41,970 nucleotides of DNA from positions 1-41,970 of the IMG/VR virus record IMGVR_UViG_3300010885_052497; one strand, written 5' to 3'. The position numbers were made by a program, and so were the translations under genes. The notes beneath the pieces are model-generated. The model made no database searches, was not told where the DNA came from, and was given only the letters and a program-made list of their open reading frames with translations. Positions 29,426 through 41,953 of this stretch are shown here, in pieces; within the stretch, counting starts at the first letter, position 1; each line of letters begins with the position of its first letter. Source of the stretch: a virus.

Positions 29426-30058
29426 TTAAATGATTTCGTCAATTACTCCTAATTCTTTTGCCTTTGCTGCGGATATATAAAAATCTTTTCTGCATGCATT
29501 TCTCCAAAACTCTTCAGTTTGTGTAGTTTTAGCTGCCATCATAGTATAAAAATCATTTTCTAAACCATCTATATGGTCAGCATTTGCTTTGATATCAGCT
29601 GACTTACCAAATATTTCAGCTGAAGCTTCATGAAGCATAATAGTTGTTAATTTAGATGCTACTCTTTTTCCAGTGCCACATGCTAAAATCATTGCGGCTG
29701 CTGACATTGCTCTTCCTCTAGCAATAATATTAACTGGTACGGCCAAGGATTCAATATAATCAATCATTCCTAAAGCTTCATACACATCTCCTCCATTAGA
29801 GTTAATCATTAAATTAATAGGATCTTCAGCGTTTTCTTCAGGTCGGTTATCTAGTACAATTCTTACTTTGGAAATTAAGTCAAATAAATTACCTAACATT
29901 ATATCACCATGTAAATAAATTATTGAGTCATTAATATTAAGACCATAATCTATTTCATTAAATATAGAATCTTCTTTAATATCTTCTAATAAATCCTTTT
30001 TCTTTTGTGGTTTCAATGGCTCATCATAAATAGTGTCCATACGTATATTTTTTATCAT
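29426..30058 (-). CDS. ClpP-like serine protease
   Basis: 210 residues from the ATG at 30058 (MIKNIRMDTIYDEP). A longer frame needs a TTG at 30076, and a shorter ATG exists at 30040. The ClpP fold is clear: LMINSNGGDVYEALGMIDYI is the substrate-groove strand. The catalytic triad is present: S119 (GRAMSAAAM), H143 (MLHEAS) and D192 (KDFYIS). ClpP normally needs a ClpX/ClpA unfoldase; no partner is in this window, so it may borrow the host's, act alone on peptides, or mature phage capsid proteins as ClpP-type head proteases do. The position away from head genes leaves the role open. Confidence 0.9.
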   Translation of the reverse strand: MIKNIRMDTIYDEPLKPQKKKDLLEDIKEDSIFNEIDYGLNINDSIIYLHGDIMLGNLFDLISKVRIVLDNRPEENAEDPINLMINSNGGDVYEALGMIDYIESLAVPVNIIARGRAMSAAAMILACGTGKRVASKLTTIMLHEASAEIFGKSADIKANADHIDGLENDFYTMMAAKTTQTEEFWRNACRKDFYISAAKAKELGVIDEII

Positions 30059-30106
30059 AGTGATTTTTAATTTCAATTAATATAAGGATTTCTTTTGAAA
30101 GATTCT

Positions 30107-31996: not shown

Positions 31997-32908
31997 TTAA
32001 TTTTTTGAAAGAATTTTTCGATAATTTAAAACAGCCAATTCTTTCGCTTTGGCTTCTATCATTATATCAATATCAAATCCATGAGTATCTATATAGTTAA
32101 TAACGTAATCTGAATGCGCTCTAGGATTAAGCTTGTCATTAGATTCGTGTAACGATTTCGACTCAGAATAATGAACGACCGGCTTACAGTCGCCCCAAGT
32201 AGATATTGCTAATTGTAAAGCCTCTTGTTCAGACTGACCGCCATCATTAAATGTATGATGATGATAATCAAAAACAATAGGCACTTTTGTGTGTCTATGA
32301 ATTAATTCATATAAATCTTTTACTGAATACATAGATGCTTTATCATCGTTTTCAATAGTTAAACGGCTACGAACTGCCTCGGATAATCTATGAAAGTTTT
32401 TACACCATGTTTCAGCAGCTGCATACTTATCTCCATAAGTAGCACCTACATGTATATTAATCTTATTATAAGGAGTTTTAGATAAACCTAAAAAATCAAA
32501 TAATAAGCCATGCATCTCTAAATCTAATATAGTGTTAACAATAACAGATTCTTTAGAAGATGCTAATAAATTAAATGGGCCTGGATGCGACGTAATACGA
32601 ATATTATTATCTATCGCATATTGACCACATCGTGCCAATACTTTTTTAATTTCAATAATATCTGGAAATGCATCTACACCTACTTTGTTACCCCATGGAA
32701 AGATATCTCCGGAAATTCTAAAAAAGAAAATGCCATTGTCGACATTCCATTTTAAAATCTTTTCGAGATCTATTGCATTTTGTAAAGCTAATTCTGAAGC
32801 ATACTCTATACCTTTCGAGTCTAAAGTTGCTTTGCGTAGAGTTCGACCGGTAAGAATTCCTTTCTTACCTAAAGTCATATTAATACAAGCATAACCGATA
32901 TTTACCAT
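31997..32908 (-). CDS. uvdE: UV damage endonuclease (UvdE/UVDE family)
   Basis: 303 residues, normal family length. The TIM-barrel and metal-site motifs are in order: IGYACINMTL (N-terminus), FRISGDIFPWG, ITSHPGPF, INIHVGA, TIENDD, VFDYHHHTFN and VVHYSESK. These supply the histidines, glutamates and aspartate that bind the catalytic metals, and the lysine of SESK lies where the family has a modified lysine. The enzyme nicks DNA 5' of cyclobutane dimers and 6-4 photoproducts to start repair. T4 uses the unrelated DenV for this task. It has its own host-type promoter. UV exposure of virions in surface water is a plausible selective reason. Confidence 0.95.
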   Translation of the reverse strand: MVNIGYACINMTLGKKGILTGRTLRKATLDSKGIEYASELALQNAIDLEKILKWNVDNGIFFFRISGDIFPWGNKVGVDAFPDIIEIKKVLARCGQYAIDNNIRITSHPGPFNLLASSKESVIVNTILDLEMHGLLFDFLGLSKTPYNKINIHVGATYGDKYAAAETWCKNFHRLSEAVRSRLTIENDDKASMYSVKDLYELIHRHTKVPIVFDYHHHTFNDGGQSEQEALQLAISTWGDCKPVVHYSESKSLHESNDKLNPRAHSDYVINYIDTHGFDIDIMIEAKAKELAVLNYRKILSKN

Positions 32909-36165: not shown

Positions 36166-37479
36166 TTAATTAGATTCTTCCATATCAACCACCCCAGCAT
36201 CTTTTACAATACCTTCTAACACTTTAAACTCAAAAGATTTGTGCTTATATACTTTTGGTACAATACCAAAATTATCAATTCTAACACATACTCCTTCTCG
36301 AATGTGTCTAACGTCTAACAAAGATGCTCCTTTAGCAGCAGTATCTACAATTTCAACTAAAAAGTTATAGATATCTCTGTCGTCTTTAGATTTAGAATAC
36401 ACTGCTATCATTTCTAAAGAAGTAATATACAATTCAGGAACATGATTTACACCTAACTCTTCACAACGAGACTTAACATCATCCCAAGTTAAGTCCACAG
36501 ACTGACCATCTTCATTGGTGTTGGTAATTCTATATACATACACTTTGTGTTCTGTTGGTTCACACCCATAAGAGTAAGACATTGTCTTTCCAAACAATTT
36601 AGAAAATTCTTTATCTCCTAATTTAGTTGTATCAACTGAAGGCATAATTGCGGCTCCGGTAGATTCATACCCAACAATCTCAAAAAATACAGTCTCGCCT
36701 TTTCTTAAATTATCTTTGAATAAAGCAAACGCTTTTTGTCTAATTGTTGGGTCATGATACTGAGTTCCGGAAGTTTCCTCTAACACAACTCTTCGAGTTC
36801 CATTAAGATAAGTCCATTCTTTTTCTTCTACATTAGCTCCAAAGAATTTAGCAATCTTATCTCGCCTAGATAATTTTTTATCTACTTGAACTCTTGCAAC
36901 TCTACCAGAAGTACCATGTACTTTTTCAGTAACTACAATTCTATGACCTGGTCTGAACTCATTAACATGCTTACCAAAGTGGGCAGTATCAAAATGTTCT
37001 TTGAACATAATTGATGTCTTTGCAGTTCTTAATTTCTTACCTTGGTTTTCTCTAGCAAGTTTCAAAGTGTTAGGGTTGATGTACTTATCACAGATAGGAA
37101 TACTTTTCCATTCAGTAAATTCAAAACCTTCAACGTCTAATCCAGTTACTTGAATAAACCCAAATTGATGAAGTGGAACCCAAAATCCATCAGAAATTTC
37201 TCCTCTAAATTTTTGTGTTCTAACTCTTCGGTTCTCGTCAAACATACCTGGTCTTTCGTCTGGAAATTTGTTCATCTCTGCTTTACGATACAAGTTGTTA
37301 GCAAAACAAAATTCATGAGAAAGTTGCCCATCGGTCGGAAAATATACTCCTAAAGCATCTTCATTGTTGTCTAATCCTACAACAACTTGATTGCCTTGAC
37401 AAGTTGCTAATTGCACCTTATCAGCGTTGGAATGCGGTCTTACATTTTTAAGTCGAGTGACTATCGCTGCATACGCCAT
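36166..37479 (-). CDS. RNA ligase, Rnl5/DRB0094 type
   Basis: 437 residues. An N-terminal ~130-residue OB-like domain (LKNVRPHSNADKVQLATCQG, GVYFPTDGQLSHEF) precedes a nucleotidyltransferase core, the two-domain plan of Deinococcus DraRnl. Ligase motifs are visible: motif I EKVHGTS with the adenylated K186, motif IIIa VFFEIVGYES, motif IV EGVCVRID and motif V YKHKSFEFK. The enzyme seals 3'-OH/5'-phosphate breaks in RNA using ATP. With ~15 phage tRNAs in the window, repair of tRNAs cut by host anticodon nucleases is a reasonable inference, although no polynucleotide kinase/phosphatase is seen here. Overlaps the upstream 70-aa gene by TAATG. Confidence 0.93.
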   Translation of the reverse strand: MAYAAIVTRLKNVRPHSNADKVQLATCQGNQVVVGLDNNEDALGVYFPTDGQLSHEFCFANNLYRKAEMNKFPDERPGMFDENRRVRTQKFRGEISDGFWVPLHQFGFIQVTGLDVEGFEFTEWKSIPICDKYINPNTLKLARENQGKKLRTAKTSIMFKEHFDTAHFGKHVNEFRPGHRIVVTEKVHGTSGRVARVQVDKKLSRRDKIAKFFGANVEEKEWTYLNGTRRVVLEETSGTQYHDPTIRQKAFALFKDNLRKGETVFFEIVGYESTGAAIMPSVDTTKLGDKEFSKLFGKTMSYSYGCEPTEHKVYVYRITNTNEDGQSVDLTWDDVKSRCEELGVNHVPELYITSLEMIAVYSKSKDDRDIYNFLVEIVDTAAKGASLLDVRHIREGVCVRIDNFGIVPKVYKHKSFEFKVLEGIVKDAGVVDMEESN

Positions 37480-38431: not shown

Positions 38432-38437
38432 AAATTG

Positions 38438-38500
38438 TCTATTTTTTAATTTCTATATATAAAGATAAGGACCTTAATTCAAAGATCCTAATTTTTTTCA
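38438..38500 (-). promoter_or_regulatory. Early-type bipartite promoter, copy B
   Basis: The first block (38438-38470) is identical to copy A. The second block starts at 38487 after exactly 16 bases of unrelated sequence. It overlaps the end of the gap after the 128-aa gene and drives the 68-aa and 65-aa genes. Confidence 0.65.
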
Positions 38501-38502
38501 AT

Positions 38503-38889: not shown

Positions 38890-38897
38890 AATTTCTG

Positions 38898-38963
38898 TCT
38901 ATTTATTAATTTCTATACATAAAGATAAGGTGCTTATAACATAGATCCTAATCTTTTTCAAAG
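38898..38963 (-). promoter_or_regulatory. Early-type bipartite promoter, copy C
   Basis: The first block (38898-38930) differs from copies A and B at two of 33 positions. The second block, TTTGAAAAAGATTAGG on the minus strand, starts at 38947 after exactly 16 bases. Serves the 128-aa gene. Confidence 0.65.
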
Positions 38964-39366
38964 TATTTTTCAATTATTTTACATGAAAAATACACCGCAT
39001 AATTAAATACAGTGCATCTTATATGATTATGTCGTCGGGTAGATAAAGTATATAGACTATGTCAAATACAAAATCAATGTCAAAGACCTTCCGTTACTAC
39101 AAAGGCAAAGTCAAAAACTAAGTCTCAGTTTCGCTAGCCACTTTTAATCTCCCACGGGAGTAACATGTCTAGTTATTGAGTTCTATCTCAGTTTTGGTTT
39201 AATTTGTAACAGAAGCGAGTTGGCTGGTTATATAGGGACAGGCCCTATAAAATCAATTAGAGTTGATTAAGATATCATATATATGTTTATATAATTGCTT
39301 CATCAAACCCAACACAAAACTTATAAGGAGTCAGCTTCTGCTTACCTTATTTGTACCATAAAAATT
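38964..39366 (-). other. Gene-free structured region, candidate noncoding RNA or origin
   Basis: About 400 bases with no credible reading frame on the coding strand, in a genome whose other gaps are mostly under 100 bases. It is less AT-rich than the gaps around it. Stem-loops seen: ataagg/ccttat at 39323-39350 with an inner AGC-AGAA-GCT, aatcaa/ttgatt at 39251-39268, tataggg/ccctata at 39231-39249 (5-base loop), ctccc/gggag at 39149-39160, and a weak CCTT/AAGG stem near 39085-39103. Three TTTGAC strings also recur on the minus strand at about 39060-39115. It could be a small RNA, a long 5' leader or a replication/packaging site. Confidence 0.45.
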
Positions 39367-40278
39367 TTAATTCAACTGATTCAAGAATTCATCTACTACA
39401 GATTGGAATCTAGTAGCAACATCAATTTTCAATGCGACCGCCGATTCAATTCCAGCTTGACGCGCTTCTTCAAATTCATGTTGTGCTTTGCGCTCTTCAC
39501 CGGCCCATTGATCATAAGCCAATTTATAAGTATTAGCAGCTGCTGAGTTTTGTTCATTTACTCGAGCTTGGATAATACCTCTTTCTTTTTGAATTCTAGC
39601 ATTTTCCTTAGTAGTTGCATTTTTTACTTTAGATTTGAAGTAATTAACCTTTTGCTCATACCCTCTATGCAATGCAGCAAGTTCTTCATGAACTGCTAGT
39701 AATTGTTGAGAAGTGTGATGTACTTCAACCTTCATAGGAGTTTTCTTTCCTACTTCAATCTCCATGAATTCCAAAGTCTTAATAGTTGGAAGTTCCGCTC
39801 TCAACTTATCTAACCTACCACCTTTGTGAATAAATTGTCCAATATGGGAAGCATAAGCCTCAGACTCTAAATATTCATTGTATTCAGCTAGAGTTAATTG
39901 ATCCCATCCAAAAGCCTCATCAACTTCAGACGGAATTGTTTCTGAAATAAGTTTAGGTCTTTCTGGAGATTCTATTGGATACTCAAATCTTTCACGTTTA
40001 ATTGAATTAATCAATTCGTCTTTGGCTTTGATGTTTTCCATCAAGAATGCTTGAGTAGCTGACAATCTTGCTTTGTCTTGTAATAAAGAAACTACATTGT
40101 CAGGAATAGGGTTTCCTTGAGTTTCTATATAGGTTTCTGTACCTATAGTTAAAGTTTTCTCAACGTTATTGATATCAGCTAAAGCAGCTGTAATATCTTT
40201 TGAACGTTGGTTACACAAATTAGAAATTGATTGTGCTTGAGACATTGATAGTCCTTTAGAAGAAAGAGAATTTTTCAT
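39367..40278 (-). CDS. Coiled-coil protein (303 aa), function unknown
   Basis: Soluble and helical, with heptads near both ends (RSKDITAALADINNVEKTLT, VHEELAALHRGYEQKVNYFK, RIQKERGIIQARVNEQNSAA). A central stretch, AYASHIGQFIHKGGRLDKLR, looks conserved, perhaps a small globular module. No membrane segment or catalytic motif. It lies between the tRNA cluster and the structured gap, starting 45 bases after tRNA-Met. A scaffold-like or nucleoid-associated role would fit the shape, but I do not recognise the family. Confidence 0.65.
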   Translation of the reverse strand: MKNSLSSKGLSMSQAQSISNLCNQRSKDITAALADINNVEKTLTIGTETYIETQGNPIPDNVVSLLQDKARLSATQAFLMENIKAKDELINSIKRERFEYPIESPERPKLISETIPSEVDEAFGWDQLTLAEYNEYLESEAYASHIGQFIHKGGRLDKLRAELPTIKTLEFMEIEVGKKTPMKVEVHHTSQQLLAVHEELAALHRGYEQKVNYFKSKVKNATTKENARIQKERGIIQARVNEQNSAAANTYKLAYDQWAGEERKAQHEFEEARQAGIESAVALKIDVATRFQSVVDEFLNQLN

Positions 40279-40322: not shown

Positions 40323-40392
40323 TAGCGGTCGGCGGATTCGAACCACTCTTCTGGGTTATGAGCCCGGTGTGCTACCATTACACTACCCCGCG
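40323..40392 (-). tRNA. tRNA-Met (CAT), initiator-like
   Basis: Anticodon loop CTCATAA; the three G:C pairs next to it (GGG...CCC) are the initiator hallmark, and the 5' end CGCGGGG is initiator-like. The acceptor stem has two mismatches near the T-arm and the length is 70, so it may be partly degenerate. No CCA encoded. Confidence 0.8.
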
Positions 40393-40402
40393 ATATATTC
40401 TG

Positions 40403-40474
40403 TGGAGATATAGGGAATTGAACCCTAATTTATGATTTGCAAAACCATCGTAATAGCCATTATACGATATCCCC
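40403..40474 (-). tRNA. tRNA-Ala (TGC)
   Basis: Loop TTTGCAA, acceptor GGGGATA/TATCTCC with the G3:U70 pair that marks alanine tRNAs, T-loop TTCAATT. 72 bases, no CCA encoded. Confidence 0.9.
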
Positions 40475-40533
40475 AAAATTTGGATAGATGAGGTTCTATC
40501 CGGACCAGGGCCTTCTCCCTAGGGAGATGCCAA
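40475..40533 (-). other. tRNA-like relict with hairpins and no anticodon
   Basis: On the minus strand, right after the 57-aa gene, TTTAATTGGCATCTCC resembles a D-arm running into an anticodon stem. The stem TCTCC/GGAGA has only CTAG in its loop, as if the three anticodon bases were removed from CTnnnAG. A GGATAGA/TCTATCC hairpin follows. No standard T-loop. Probably a decayed tRNA; a terminator-like RNA is the alternative. Confidence 0.35.
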
Positions 40534-40707
40534 TTAAACTTTTGCTCTTAAAATTTCAATCTCTTTGTTGATTCTTTTCTTATCAGAATCAGTCAATGGA
40601 ACTTTTACATCTGTCGTTTTCTTTTCAGTTTTCACTCCTGAGCTCAATTGAGCTTCTAACATTCCTAATGCTCTAGCCTGTCTAGATCTCTGTGGTGCTG
40701 TTGCCAT
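40534..40707 (-). CDS. Small basic protein (57 aa) inside the tRNA cluster
   Basis: ATG at 40707, TAA at 40534-40536. Starts MATAPQRSRQARALGMLEAQ, basic N-terminus, then a charged helix (LTDSDKKRINKEIEILRAKV). The full-length frame and normal codon use, in a cluster where other short frames are only tRNA shadows, support a real gene. Unknown; RNA binding is possible from its charge. Confidence 0.6.
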   Translation of the reverse strand: MATAPQRSRQARALGMLEAQLSSGVKTEKKTTDVKVPLTDSDKKRINKEIEILRAKV

Positions 40708-40730
40708 ATTTAATTGTTATTTATTATTAG

Positions 40731-40802
40731 TAGCCCCACCGGGAGTCGAACCCGACTTTTTTGGATGAAAACCAAATATCCTAACCGATAGATGATAGGG
40801 CC
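40731..40802 (-). tRNA. tRNA-Glu (TTC)
   Basis: Anticodon arm TTTGG-TTTTCAT-CCAAA, T-arm CGGG-TTCGACT-CCCG, acceptor GGCCCTA/TGGGGCT with wobble pairs at both ends. 72 bases, no CCA encoded. Confidence 0.92.
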
Positions 40803-40808
40803 ATTTTG

Positions 40809-40896
40809 AGGAAGATGTGGGATTCGAACCCACGGAGGTTTTAACGCCTCTCCGGTTTTCAAGACCGGAGCAATAGGCCAACTCTGCCAACCTTCC
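40809..40896 (-). tRNA. tRNA-Ser (TGA)
   Basis: Class II tRNA of 88 bases: anticodon arm CCGGT-CTTGAAA-ACCGG, long variable arm (GAGGCG...CCTC), T-arm GTGGG-TTCGAAT-CCCAC, acceptor GGAAGGT/ATCTTCC. Confidence 0.93.
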
Positions 40897-40909
40897 CTTT
40901 TAATACTTC

Positions 40910-40945
40910 ATAAATATAAGATTACCTTTTGAATAATCCTAATTT
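40910..40945 (-). promoter_or_regulatory. Early-type promoter within the tRNA cluster
   Basis: The minus strand has TTAGG (40942-40938), then 17 bases, then CTTATATTTAT (40920-40910). This is the same TTAGG-to-CTTAT distance as in the promoters at 37942, 38438 and 38898. It points at tRNA-Ser and the downstream tRNAs, in the only 68-base gap here. Confidence 0.5.
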
Positions 40946-40964
40946 TTTTTAATCTTTTTTTTTG

Positions 40965-41036
40965 AGGCGCGAGCTGGATTCGAACCAGCGTTACAGAGTT
41001 TGCAATCCTGCACCTAAGCCACTCGGTCATCGCGCC
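40965..41036 (-). tRNA. tRNA-Cys (GCA)
   Basis: Anticodon loop TTGCAAA, acceptor GGCGCGA/TCGCGCC perfect, T-arm GCTGG-TTCGAAT-CCAGC, U at position 73 as expected for cysteine. 72 bases. Confidence 0.93.
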
Positions 41037-41043
41037 ATTATTG

Positions 41044-41115
41044 AACTCCTAATAGGACTCGAACCTATATCATCTGGTTCGTAGCCAAACGTTTTTCCAA
41101 TTAAACTATAAGAGC
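41044..41115 (-). tRNA. tRNA-Arg (ACG)
   Basis: Anticodon arm TTTGG-CTACGAA-CCAGA, acceptor GCTCTTA/TAGGAGT with wobbles, T-arm ATAGG-TTCGAGT-CCTAT. ACG needs A-to-I editing at the wobble position, presumably by host TadA. Confidence 0.88.
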
Positions 41116-41120
41116 CTATG

Positions 41121-41193
41121 TACCCAAGGCGAGACTCGAACTCGCAAAATCTAGATCCTAAGTCTAGCGTGTCTGCCATTCCACCACTCGGGC
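41121..41193 (-). tRNA. tRNA-Leu (TAG) with truncated variable arm
   Basis: Anticodon arm CTAGA-CTTAGGA-TCTAG, D-arm AGTGGTGGAATGGCAGACAC typical of leucine, T-arm GCGAG-TTCGAGT-CTCGC, acceptor GCCCGAG/CTTGGGT. Only ATTTT lies between the anticodon and T stems, so the long class II variable arm is missing. 73 bases. Confidence 0.9.
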
Positions 41194-41312
41194 CGTTGCA
41201 GAGCATTTTTGTTAAGCAGAAGTCAGCTCTGTCTCTTAAACTGCTAAAAGAAACTGTCCAAGTTTTAAACTACCCTGCTTTCGCTGTCCAGGCTTTACTC
41301 TGTTTCTTATTG
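41194..41312 (-). other. Structured 119-base spacer within the tRNA cluster
   Basis: No tRNA signature and no reading frame. Two long-range stems are visible: cagagc/gctctg (41199-41231) and agaaac/gtttct (41249-41307). An imperfect internal repeat of about 30 bases contains TGGACAG twice on the minus strand. Candidate small RNA, processing signal or remnant of lost tRNAs. Confidence 0.4.
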
Positions 41313-41385
41313 TACCCCTAGAAGAATTCGAATCTCCATTTAACATCTTAGAAGGATGTTGCATTTCCATTTATGCTATAAGGGC
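41313..41385 (-). tRNA. tRNA-Arg (TCT)
   Basis: Anticodon arm ACATC-CTTCTAA-GATGT, T-loop TTCGAAT, acceptor GCCCTTA/TAGGGGT. 73 bases, no CCA encoded. Reads AGA, a codon common in AT-rich phages. Confidence 0.92.
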
Positions 41386-41389
41386 AATT

Positions 41390-41456
41390 TAAAGTAACTT
41401 AGGACTCGAACCTAATCATGCCAAATTAATAGCAATTATCCACCATGCATTACTTT
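41390..41456 (-). tRNA. Degenerate tRNA, anticodon unassigned
   Basis: Acceptor AAAGTAA/TTACTTT and T-arm TTAGG-TTCGAGT-CCTAA are intact, but the whole is only ~67 bases, the D-arm is weak, and the anticodon stem TGCTA/TGGCA leaves a 6-base loop TTAATT. The 5' end (AAAGTAATGCA) repeats that of the neighbouring tRNA-Ser, suggesting a partial duplicate. Confidence 0.5.
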
Positions 41457-41458
41457 AG

Positions 41459-41543
41459 AGGAAAGTAAAGGTATCGAACCCTATCCATTTTATTGAACCA
41501 CTTGTTTAGCAAACAGTGACAACTCCTAGTTGCATTACTTTCC
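41459..41543 (-). tRNA. tRNA-Ser (GCT)
   Basis: Class II size (85 bases), acceptor GGAAAGT/ACTTTCC perfect, anticodon loop TTGCTAA, T-loop TTCGATA. The anticodon stem pairs only with one bulged A, so decoding efficiency may be reduced. Confidence 0.75.
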
Positions 41544-41545
41544 AT

Positions 41546-41633
41546 TGGTACGCCAGGCCGGACTCGAACCGGCACCCCCATTTCTGAGGATTGGATTTTA
41601 AGTCCAACGTGTCTACCATTCCACCACAGGCGC
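41546..41633 (-). tRNA. tRNA-Leu (TAA), CCA encoded
   Basis: Anticodon arm TTGGA-CTTAAAA-TCCAA, long variable arm (TCCTCAGAAATGGGGGT), T-arm GCCGG-TTCGAGT-CCGGC, acceptor GCGCCTG/CTGGCGT with one mismatch, 3' ACCA present in the DNA. Confidence 0.93.
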
Positions 41634-41636
41634 AAT

Positions 41637-41712
41637 TGGTGTGAAAGCTGGGGCTCGAACCCAGAATCTCCTGAACCACAATCAGACGCTTTACCATTCA
41701 GCTACAATCACC
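41637..41712 (-). tRNA. tRNA-His (GTG), CCA encoded
   Basis: Anticodon arm TCTGA-TTGTGGT-TCAGG, T-arm CTGGG-TTCGAGC-CCCAG, a G at -1, and 3' ACCA encoded. The base opposite G-1 is A rather than the usual C73, and the acceptor has two T:T mismatches. Only 3 bases from tRNA-Leu. Confidence 0.88.
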
Positions 41713-41722
41713 ATGTATCTTG

Positions 41723-41794
41723 TTGGGTTATTAGGATTCGAACCTAAACTAAAACAGTCAAAGTGTTTTGTGCTAACCGTTACACTATAACCCA
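41723..41794 (-). tRNA. tRNA-Gln (TTG)
   Basis: Acceptor TGGGTTA/TAACCCA perfect with U1 typical of glutamine, anticodon arm AAACA-CTTTGAC-TGTTT, T-arm TTAGG-TTCGAAT-CCTAA. 72 bases. Confidence 0.92.
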
Positions 41795-41801
41795 AAATTT
41801 G

Positions 41802-41870
41802 TACCGAGTGTTGGATTCGAACCAACCTAAGGGCGGATATGAGCCATCCTTGATCCCAAGCTCACTCGGT
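41802..41870 (-). tRNA. tRNA with CAT anticodon (elongator Met or Ile2)
   Basis: Anticodon loop CTCATAT in stem GATGG/CCGCC, acceptor ACCGAGT/ACTCGGT perfect, T-arm GTTGG-TTCGAAT-CCAAC. It lacks the G:C triplet of initiators. Whether it is methionine or lysidine-modified isoleucine cannot be decided by eye. 69 bases. Confidence 0.85.
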
Positions 41871-41880
41871 AATTAAATTG

Positions 41881-41953
41881 TGGGTCCTGCAGGAATCGAA
41901 CCTGCTCCTTTAGTTCTTCAGACTAACGTACGCACCAGCTATACCAAAGACCC
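41881..41953 (-). tRNA. tRNA-Phe (GAA)
   Basis: Anticodon arm TTAGT-CTGAAGA-ACTAA, acceptor GGGTCTT/AGGACCC, T-arm GCAGG-TTCGATT-CCTGC. 73 bases, no CCA encoded. Confidence 0.93.

Follow-up and report, generated by a model that had tools for sequence, protein, structure and literature searches.

The pRNA of phage phi29 is a phage RNA that works within a protein machine; it is about 174 nt long and is tied to packaging motors of the phi29 type. OLE RNA is a large structured RNA encoded in bacterial chromosomes, and it has dedicated protein partners. GOLLD and ROOL, two ornate kinds of phage RNA, are often located near tRNA islands, and ROOL has no known protein partner (PMC12286853). Both have long been orphans for want of a pointer to a partner, and new large structured phage RNAs are rare. 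Here we analyzed a gene-free gap in a stretch of viral DNA of 41,970 bases (IMG/VR virus record IMGVR_UViG_3300010885_052497), the whole of which is hereafter called the window. The gap holds a structured RNA of a new family; we are practically certain of the RNA itself, and its strand, extent, distribution, linkage to one gene and absence from Rfam are matters of direct observation.

Searches of Rfam 15 at the gathering threshold returned no match at the element, either in the window or at 12 homologous loci, the unmatched families including tmRNA, RNase P, 6S, GOLLD, ROOL, introns and ribozymes. At permissive thresholds the weak E-value matches differed between homologues and gave no consistent lead. 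Neither a description of the RNA in the open-access literature nor a relative of the RNA or of the neighboring protein among named phages was found. No homology to the phi29 pRNA was detected (no Rfam match), and OLE RNA is larger than the window RNA, which has no Rfam match to it either. As is the case for GOLLD and ROOL, the window RNA is phage-encoded, elaborately structured with covarying pairs, and of unknown function (PMC12286853). tRNA arrays lie beside it in some of its lineages only; it is ~330 nt long, whereas many GOLLD RNAs exceed 800 nt, and it has a constant protein-gene partner, unlike ROOL, the tRNA context being optional.

The gap spans positions 38890-39366 (477 nt) and is the longest of the window, the runner-up being 113 nt long; the opening 5.9 kb of the window consist of a single open-ended ORF, thus offering no competitor gap. 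Its GC content is 0.31 (0.35 within the RNA element), compared to ~0.1-0.27 in the remaining gaps between protein genes, in agreement with a previous sequence-only reading, which had described it as the longest gap and as less AT-rich than the others. That reading had also seen no convincing frame in the gap, and we found none in the element: among 54 homologues the longest ORF starting with ATG had a mean of 27 codons, against 33 in shuffled sequences, and no conserved protein frame, a finding that it had named as fatal to its proposal, emerged among them. The minus strand folds with -95.3 kcal/mol, compared to -77.5 +/- 5.5 kcal/mol for shuffled sequences (z=-3.2; 0/100 shuffles as strong), and the plus strand shows a smaller excess (z=-2.7; 1/100 shuffles).

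Homologues were collected by a search with the 303-aa protein encoded next to the gap, which yielded 80 related phage contigs; the set was then enlarged by two broader searches with proteins and one with an RNA pattern. In nearly all of the 80 contigs a homologue of the gap sequence comes immediately after the gene. The element is present in ~116 IMG/VR phage contigs (counted by contig name), from genomes of up to 434 kb, and 93 distinct RNA sequences were obtained. Most homologues were reached via the protein, thus the co-occurrence of RNA and protein is partly ascertained; the RNA-first pattern search detected 35 contigs, six of them new, and the protein gene was present in all six. When a covariance model for the 3' core was trained on 26 other phages, the window being excluded, it recovered the held-out window copy with 172 bits (E=3.5e-30), as well as 28 further held-out loci (E <= 2e-8), always beside the protein gene. 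One clear copy was observed in each of 14 phage records. A pattern scan of GTDB genomes gave five matches, of which the covariance model scored just two (E 0.02 and 0.21), and these were taken as chance. The RNA ends were inferred from conservation; the ~327-nt RNA is presumably made as a stable transcript. The features of the locus are listed in Table 1.

Table 1. Features of the RNA locus and its surroundings (window coordinates).
Feature	Position	Strand	Evidence or remarks
tRNA array upstream of the partner gene, 12 tRNA genes	40324..41953	-	Rfam; clade-specific, not a required part
Partner gene, 303-aa protein	39367..40278	-	Linkage with the RNA strict; member of no Pfam or PHROG family; modeled fold without PDB match
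Structured RNA gene, ~327 nt, conserved 5' GGU to 3' GAC/AAC	39031..39357	-	nhmmer E 7.5e-68; 93 distinct homologues; covariation; cmsearch E 3.5e-30
5' hairpin HP1, apical sequence conserved (UAAGCACAAGCYGAU in the consensus, UAAGCAGAAGCUGAC in the window)	39319..39354	-	Helices 1-3
Closing helix P1, 5' strand GUGUUGGGUUUGAUGAAG	39298..39315	-	Helices 4-5; double changes at 14/14 pairs
Closing helix P1, 3' strand CUUUAUCUACCCGACGAC	39031..39048	-	Helices 4-5; double changes at 14/14 pairs
Variable region, poorly conserved hairpins, including tataggg/ccctata (39231-39249) and aatcaa/ttgatt (39251-39270)	39216..39297	-	Alignments
P4, 5' strand CUUCUGUUAC	39206..39215	-	Helix 6; double changes at 9/9 pairs
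P4, 3' strand GUAACGGAAG	39088..39097	-	Helix 6; double changes at 9/9 pairs
P5a, 5' strand AAAACUGAG, opens the conserved ACUGAGAUAGAACUC element	39187..39195	-	Helices 7-8
P5a, 3' strand CUUAGUUUU	39114..39122	-	Helices 7-8
P5b, 5' strand CUCA	39177..39180	-	Helix 9; 78% paired; double changes at 2/4 pairs
P5b, 3' strand UGAG	39124..39127	-	Helix 9; 78% paired; double changes at 2/4 pairs
P6 hairpin, ctccc/gggag at the tip	39134..39173	-	Helix 10; 95% of cells paired; double changes at 6/7 pairs
Array 1, U-N-R per 6 nt (CUUAGU UUUUGA CUUUGC CUUUGU AGUA), ends overlap P5a and P4	39095..39122	-	Column entropies by phase
Array 2, five U-N-R units at a 6-nt step (UCUUUGACAUUGAUUUUGUAUUUGACAUAG), modeled as unpaired	39057..39086	-	Unit counts, 54 sequences
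Near-invariant CUAUAU behind array 2	39050..39055	-	Column statistics
Intrinsic-terminator-like hairpin and U run, directly after the RNA	38985..39018	-	-11.2 kcal/mol in downstream scan; -14.0 kcal/mol in direct fold

The structure model comprises the 5' hairpin, the closing helix P1, the long-range helix P4, P5a/P5b and P6, and was scored on 54 homologues aligned with MAFFT by sequence alone. Standard pairs occupy 83% of the cells compared to 70% in shuffled alignments, and double changes were seen at 46 of the 53 proposed pairs, adding up to 444 double-change cells against 145 +/- 15 after shuffling. The covariation score was 0.42, versus 0.21 shuffled and 0.11-0.22 when partners were slid sideways over 1-3 columns. 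As the model was drawn up on these very sequences, the slid control taken alone is generous, and more weight falls on the counts of double changes. Compensatory changes track RNA pairing over the whole element, including helices more than 100 nt apart.

The gap had been singled out beforehand as the best candidate of the window for an undescribed RNA or a replication site, with covariation analysis on related phages as one suggested check. The double changes, together with the held-out covariance-model match and the lack of an Rfam match, bear out the first of these proposals. The second, a DNA replication origin or some other site acting at the DNA level, could appeal to the hairpins and the repeated TTTGAC strings; it is nevertheless extremely improbable, because an origin would need no compensatory changes along a single transcript strand, and here the base-pair constraint lies on one such strand, always that of the protein gene. 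Furthermore, the orientation to that gene is fixed, the element stays a unit with it even when other ORFs intervene, and a terminator-like hairpin follows the RNA in the window and in some homologues.

Helices 1-3 of HP1 are paired in 94%, 80% and 100% of cells, respectively, with double changes at every pair. As for the four stem-loops that had been picked out by eye, ataagg/ccttat corresponds to this conserved 5' hairpin and ctccc/gggag to the tip of P6, while tataggg/ccctata and aatcaa/ttgatt fall within the variable region and are unconserved. An RNA subtype without the ACUGAGAUAGAACUC element was observed in distant lineages (L066, L070, L073, L074, L075, L198, L206, L211 and L216), in which a U/G-rich insert (e.g. 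UUUUUUGUGGGUUUUU) takes its place. Two other candidate features were discarded: a group I intron core with GACUU / AGUCUAU as P7, whose supposed partners did not covary in the alignment, and a Bacteroidetes promoter (TAnnTTTG) at the 5' end, a near-match limited to one clade.

The repeated TTTGAC strings reported from the sequence are real; they lie on the minus strand and form part of two ordered arrays with a 6-nt period, both in the 3' half of the RNA. The three central units of array 1 are all intact in 49/54 sequences, and array 2 retains its five units in 44/54, the other 10 having four. Mean entropy along array 2 is 0.21 bits at the U phase and 0.47 bits at the R phase, the remaining four phases showing 0.94-1.26 bits. 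The beat is kept although most of the intervening bases vary, a behavior that fits repeated contacts to identical protein subunits, and the arrays are candidate repeated protein-binding sites. Sites recognized by TRAP, the trp RNA-binding attenuation protein, consist of GAG/UAG triplets separated by 2-3 nt spacers (PMC4854314), and the arrays would resemble them in offering a binder of several subunits a short motif at nearly even intervals, in this case U-N-R with 3-nt spacers. This is a resemblance and not membership: about 11 GAG/UAG triplets would be expected of a TRAP-type site, whereas these are two short arrays of 3-5 units set in a folded RNA, with a middle base that is mostly U and a neighboring protein without Pfam match.

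Read as codons, the arrays take the form NTN-RNN, with U at codon position 2 and a purine at position 1 of the next codon in every 6 nt, as would be seen in a short coding frame for an alternating hydrophobic/polar peptide. Such a frame is scarcely credible, given that an in-frame ATG exists in just 2/54 sequences and that ORFs are no longer than in shuffled sequences; in addition, the distance between the arrays has one length in 26 sequences and is 1 nt longer in 27, so that they do not stay in one frame. Arrays that are conserved, unpaired and U-rich, with a fixed beat, could also belong to a trans-acting regulatory RNA or sponge, whose UUUG-rich stretches would capture host or phage RNAs by pairing, or titrate these or a protein of the Hfq type. 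We consider this unlikely, since at least half of the positions within the arrays differ freely from one lineage to another, as an antisense seed would not; moreover, no target emerged, and the linkage to a single protein gene would be left unexplained.

That linkage is strict. The RNA starts 9 nt behind the 303-aa gene in the window, and wherever a contig extends beyond the gene, the RNA comes after it in the same orientation, with a spacing that is usually 7-40 nt; the gene was seen without the RNA only in three contigs (appearing as seven pieces), all of which end inside the gene. Four phages sharing a baseplate or SbcCD-like gene have neither the RNA nor the 303-aa protein, and the same baseplate and SbcCD-like queries matched 10/10 and 14/14 phages of the RNA family. 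Genes of this lineage other than the pair have their nearest relatives in Microcystis and Flavobacterium phages. Homologues of the protein are kept down to 46% identity, and gene and RNA have stayed together across 46-85% protein identity. In our judgment the RNA and the 303-aa protein are very probably functionally linked.

The predicted fold of the protein is confident (pLDDT 85.5) and runs twice through a helix, a beta-hairpin and a long helix, which suggests an internal duplication in the modeled structure. Comparison of the model with the PDB gave no significant fold match (best E 0.09), and BFVD contains a single homologue, an uncharacterised protein from an uncultured phage. The protein is acidic (pI 5.3-6.6), a mild argument against simple coating of RNA, and no known RNA-binding domain was found in it. 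Two homologues of the gene look damaged: that at L047:5001-5903 has a single in-frame TAA at codon 147, and that at L108:9383-10077 is without its middle part (residues ~110-180); the RNA is kept in both.

In several lineages the slot between gene and RNA is occupied by unrelated ORFs of 64-468 aa, at least five in total, raising the spacing to up to 1494 nt; the unit is not broken, the GGU start of the RNA is kept and the RNA is the next element in line. The slot behaves as if it were an insertion hotspot, and differing small ORFs fill it in L001, L009, L015, L016, L018, L022, L025, L030 and L213. These insertions bear on the reading of the RNA as an element that controls the 303-aa gene from its 3' side, to which the protein would bind in order to tune the stability or translation of its own mRNA. 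A start only 7-40 nt past the stop codon in most lineages is what such an element would show; we regard this as rather improbable, because of the intervening ORFs and of a fold that is bigger and better conserved than the usual autoregulatory site.

Phages of the window's clade have 11-25 tRNAs upstream on the same strand. A distant clade (L196-L218) has no tRNAs within 3.6-5 kb of the RNA and always the protein gene, thus the tRNA context depends on the clade, whereas the protein gene is constant. The tRNAs beside the RNA would suit an RNA-only scaffold or cage tied to phage tRNA arrays, after the manner of GOLLD and ROOL, ornate, often close to tRNA islands and, in the case of ROOL, partnerless (PMC12286853). 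The tRNA-free clade and the missing Rfam GOLLD or ROOL match make such a cage quite unlikely.

Other elements were observed around these loci. One related phage contig has, at L057:3306-3437 (+), a self-cleaving ribozyme of the Hatchet family (Rfam RF02678, 60.6 bits versus a threshold of 51), which lies upstream of its copy of the protein-RNA pair. Near-identical leaders are found in the window at 38432-38502 and 38890-38960 (-), ahead of two adjacent genes (TTGAAAAA..ATTAGGATC...CCTTATCTTTAT.TATAGAAATTAA), and in L037, L038, L039 and L043 a piece matching them is present downstream of the RNA; they are possibly a phage promoter or translation leader. The window also encodes a UvdE-type UV endonuclease (31997-32908), a Clp protease (29426-30076) and an RNA ligase (36166-37479), all on the minus strand.

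The proposal that we favor, and to which we give about an even chance, is that the RNA and the 303-aa protein act as an RNA-protein particle in which the arrays would be the binding sites. The RNA would probably be cut from a transcript running through the tRNAs, the 303-aa gene, the RNA and the terminator; it folds into the 5' hairpin, P1 as a long helix that closes the structure, and a branched domain inside it made up of P4, P5 and P6, with two U-rich stretches bearing the regular U-N-purine beat at a 6-nt step. Its most likely partner would be the 303-aa protein encoded just upstream: the folded part may supply shape and the arrays evenly spaced sites at which a protein would bind in several copies, in the simplest case this one, which is presumed to bind the RNA directly. 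Several observations weigh against the particle, namely the acidic protein without a known RNA-binding domain, the substitution of the central ACUGAGAUAGAACUC element in the most distant lineages, and the constant neighbors, which co-transcription or autoregulation could also explain. A bolder form, a new phage ribonucleoprotein whose protein, of no known fold, would polymerise or form a ring on the two 6-nt arrays of its own dedicated RNA and so build a particle that serves infection in a broad lineage of large phages, is more doubtful than likely.

Large phage RNAs are broadly a known kind; the novelty is the RNA family together with its protein, neither of them with known relatives. The window RNA comes with its partner gene in every contig where this can be checked, which provides a concrete RNA-protein hypothesis, along with a confident protein model without known fold and a regular array predicting repeated binding. 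An RNA placed directly behind one gene in more than a hundred large phages suggests an RNA-protein machine.
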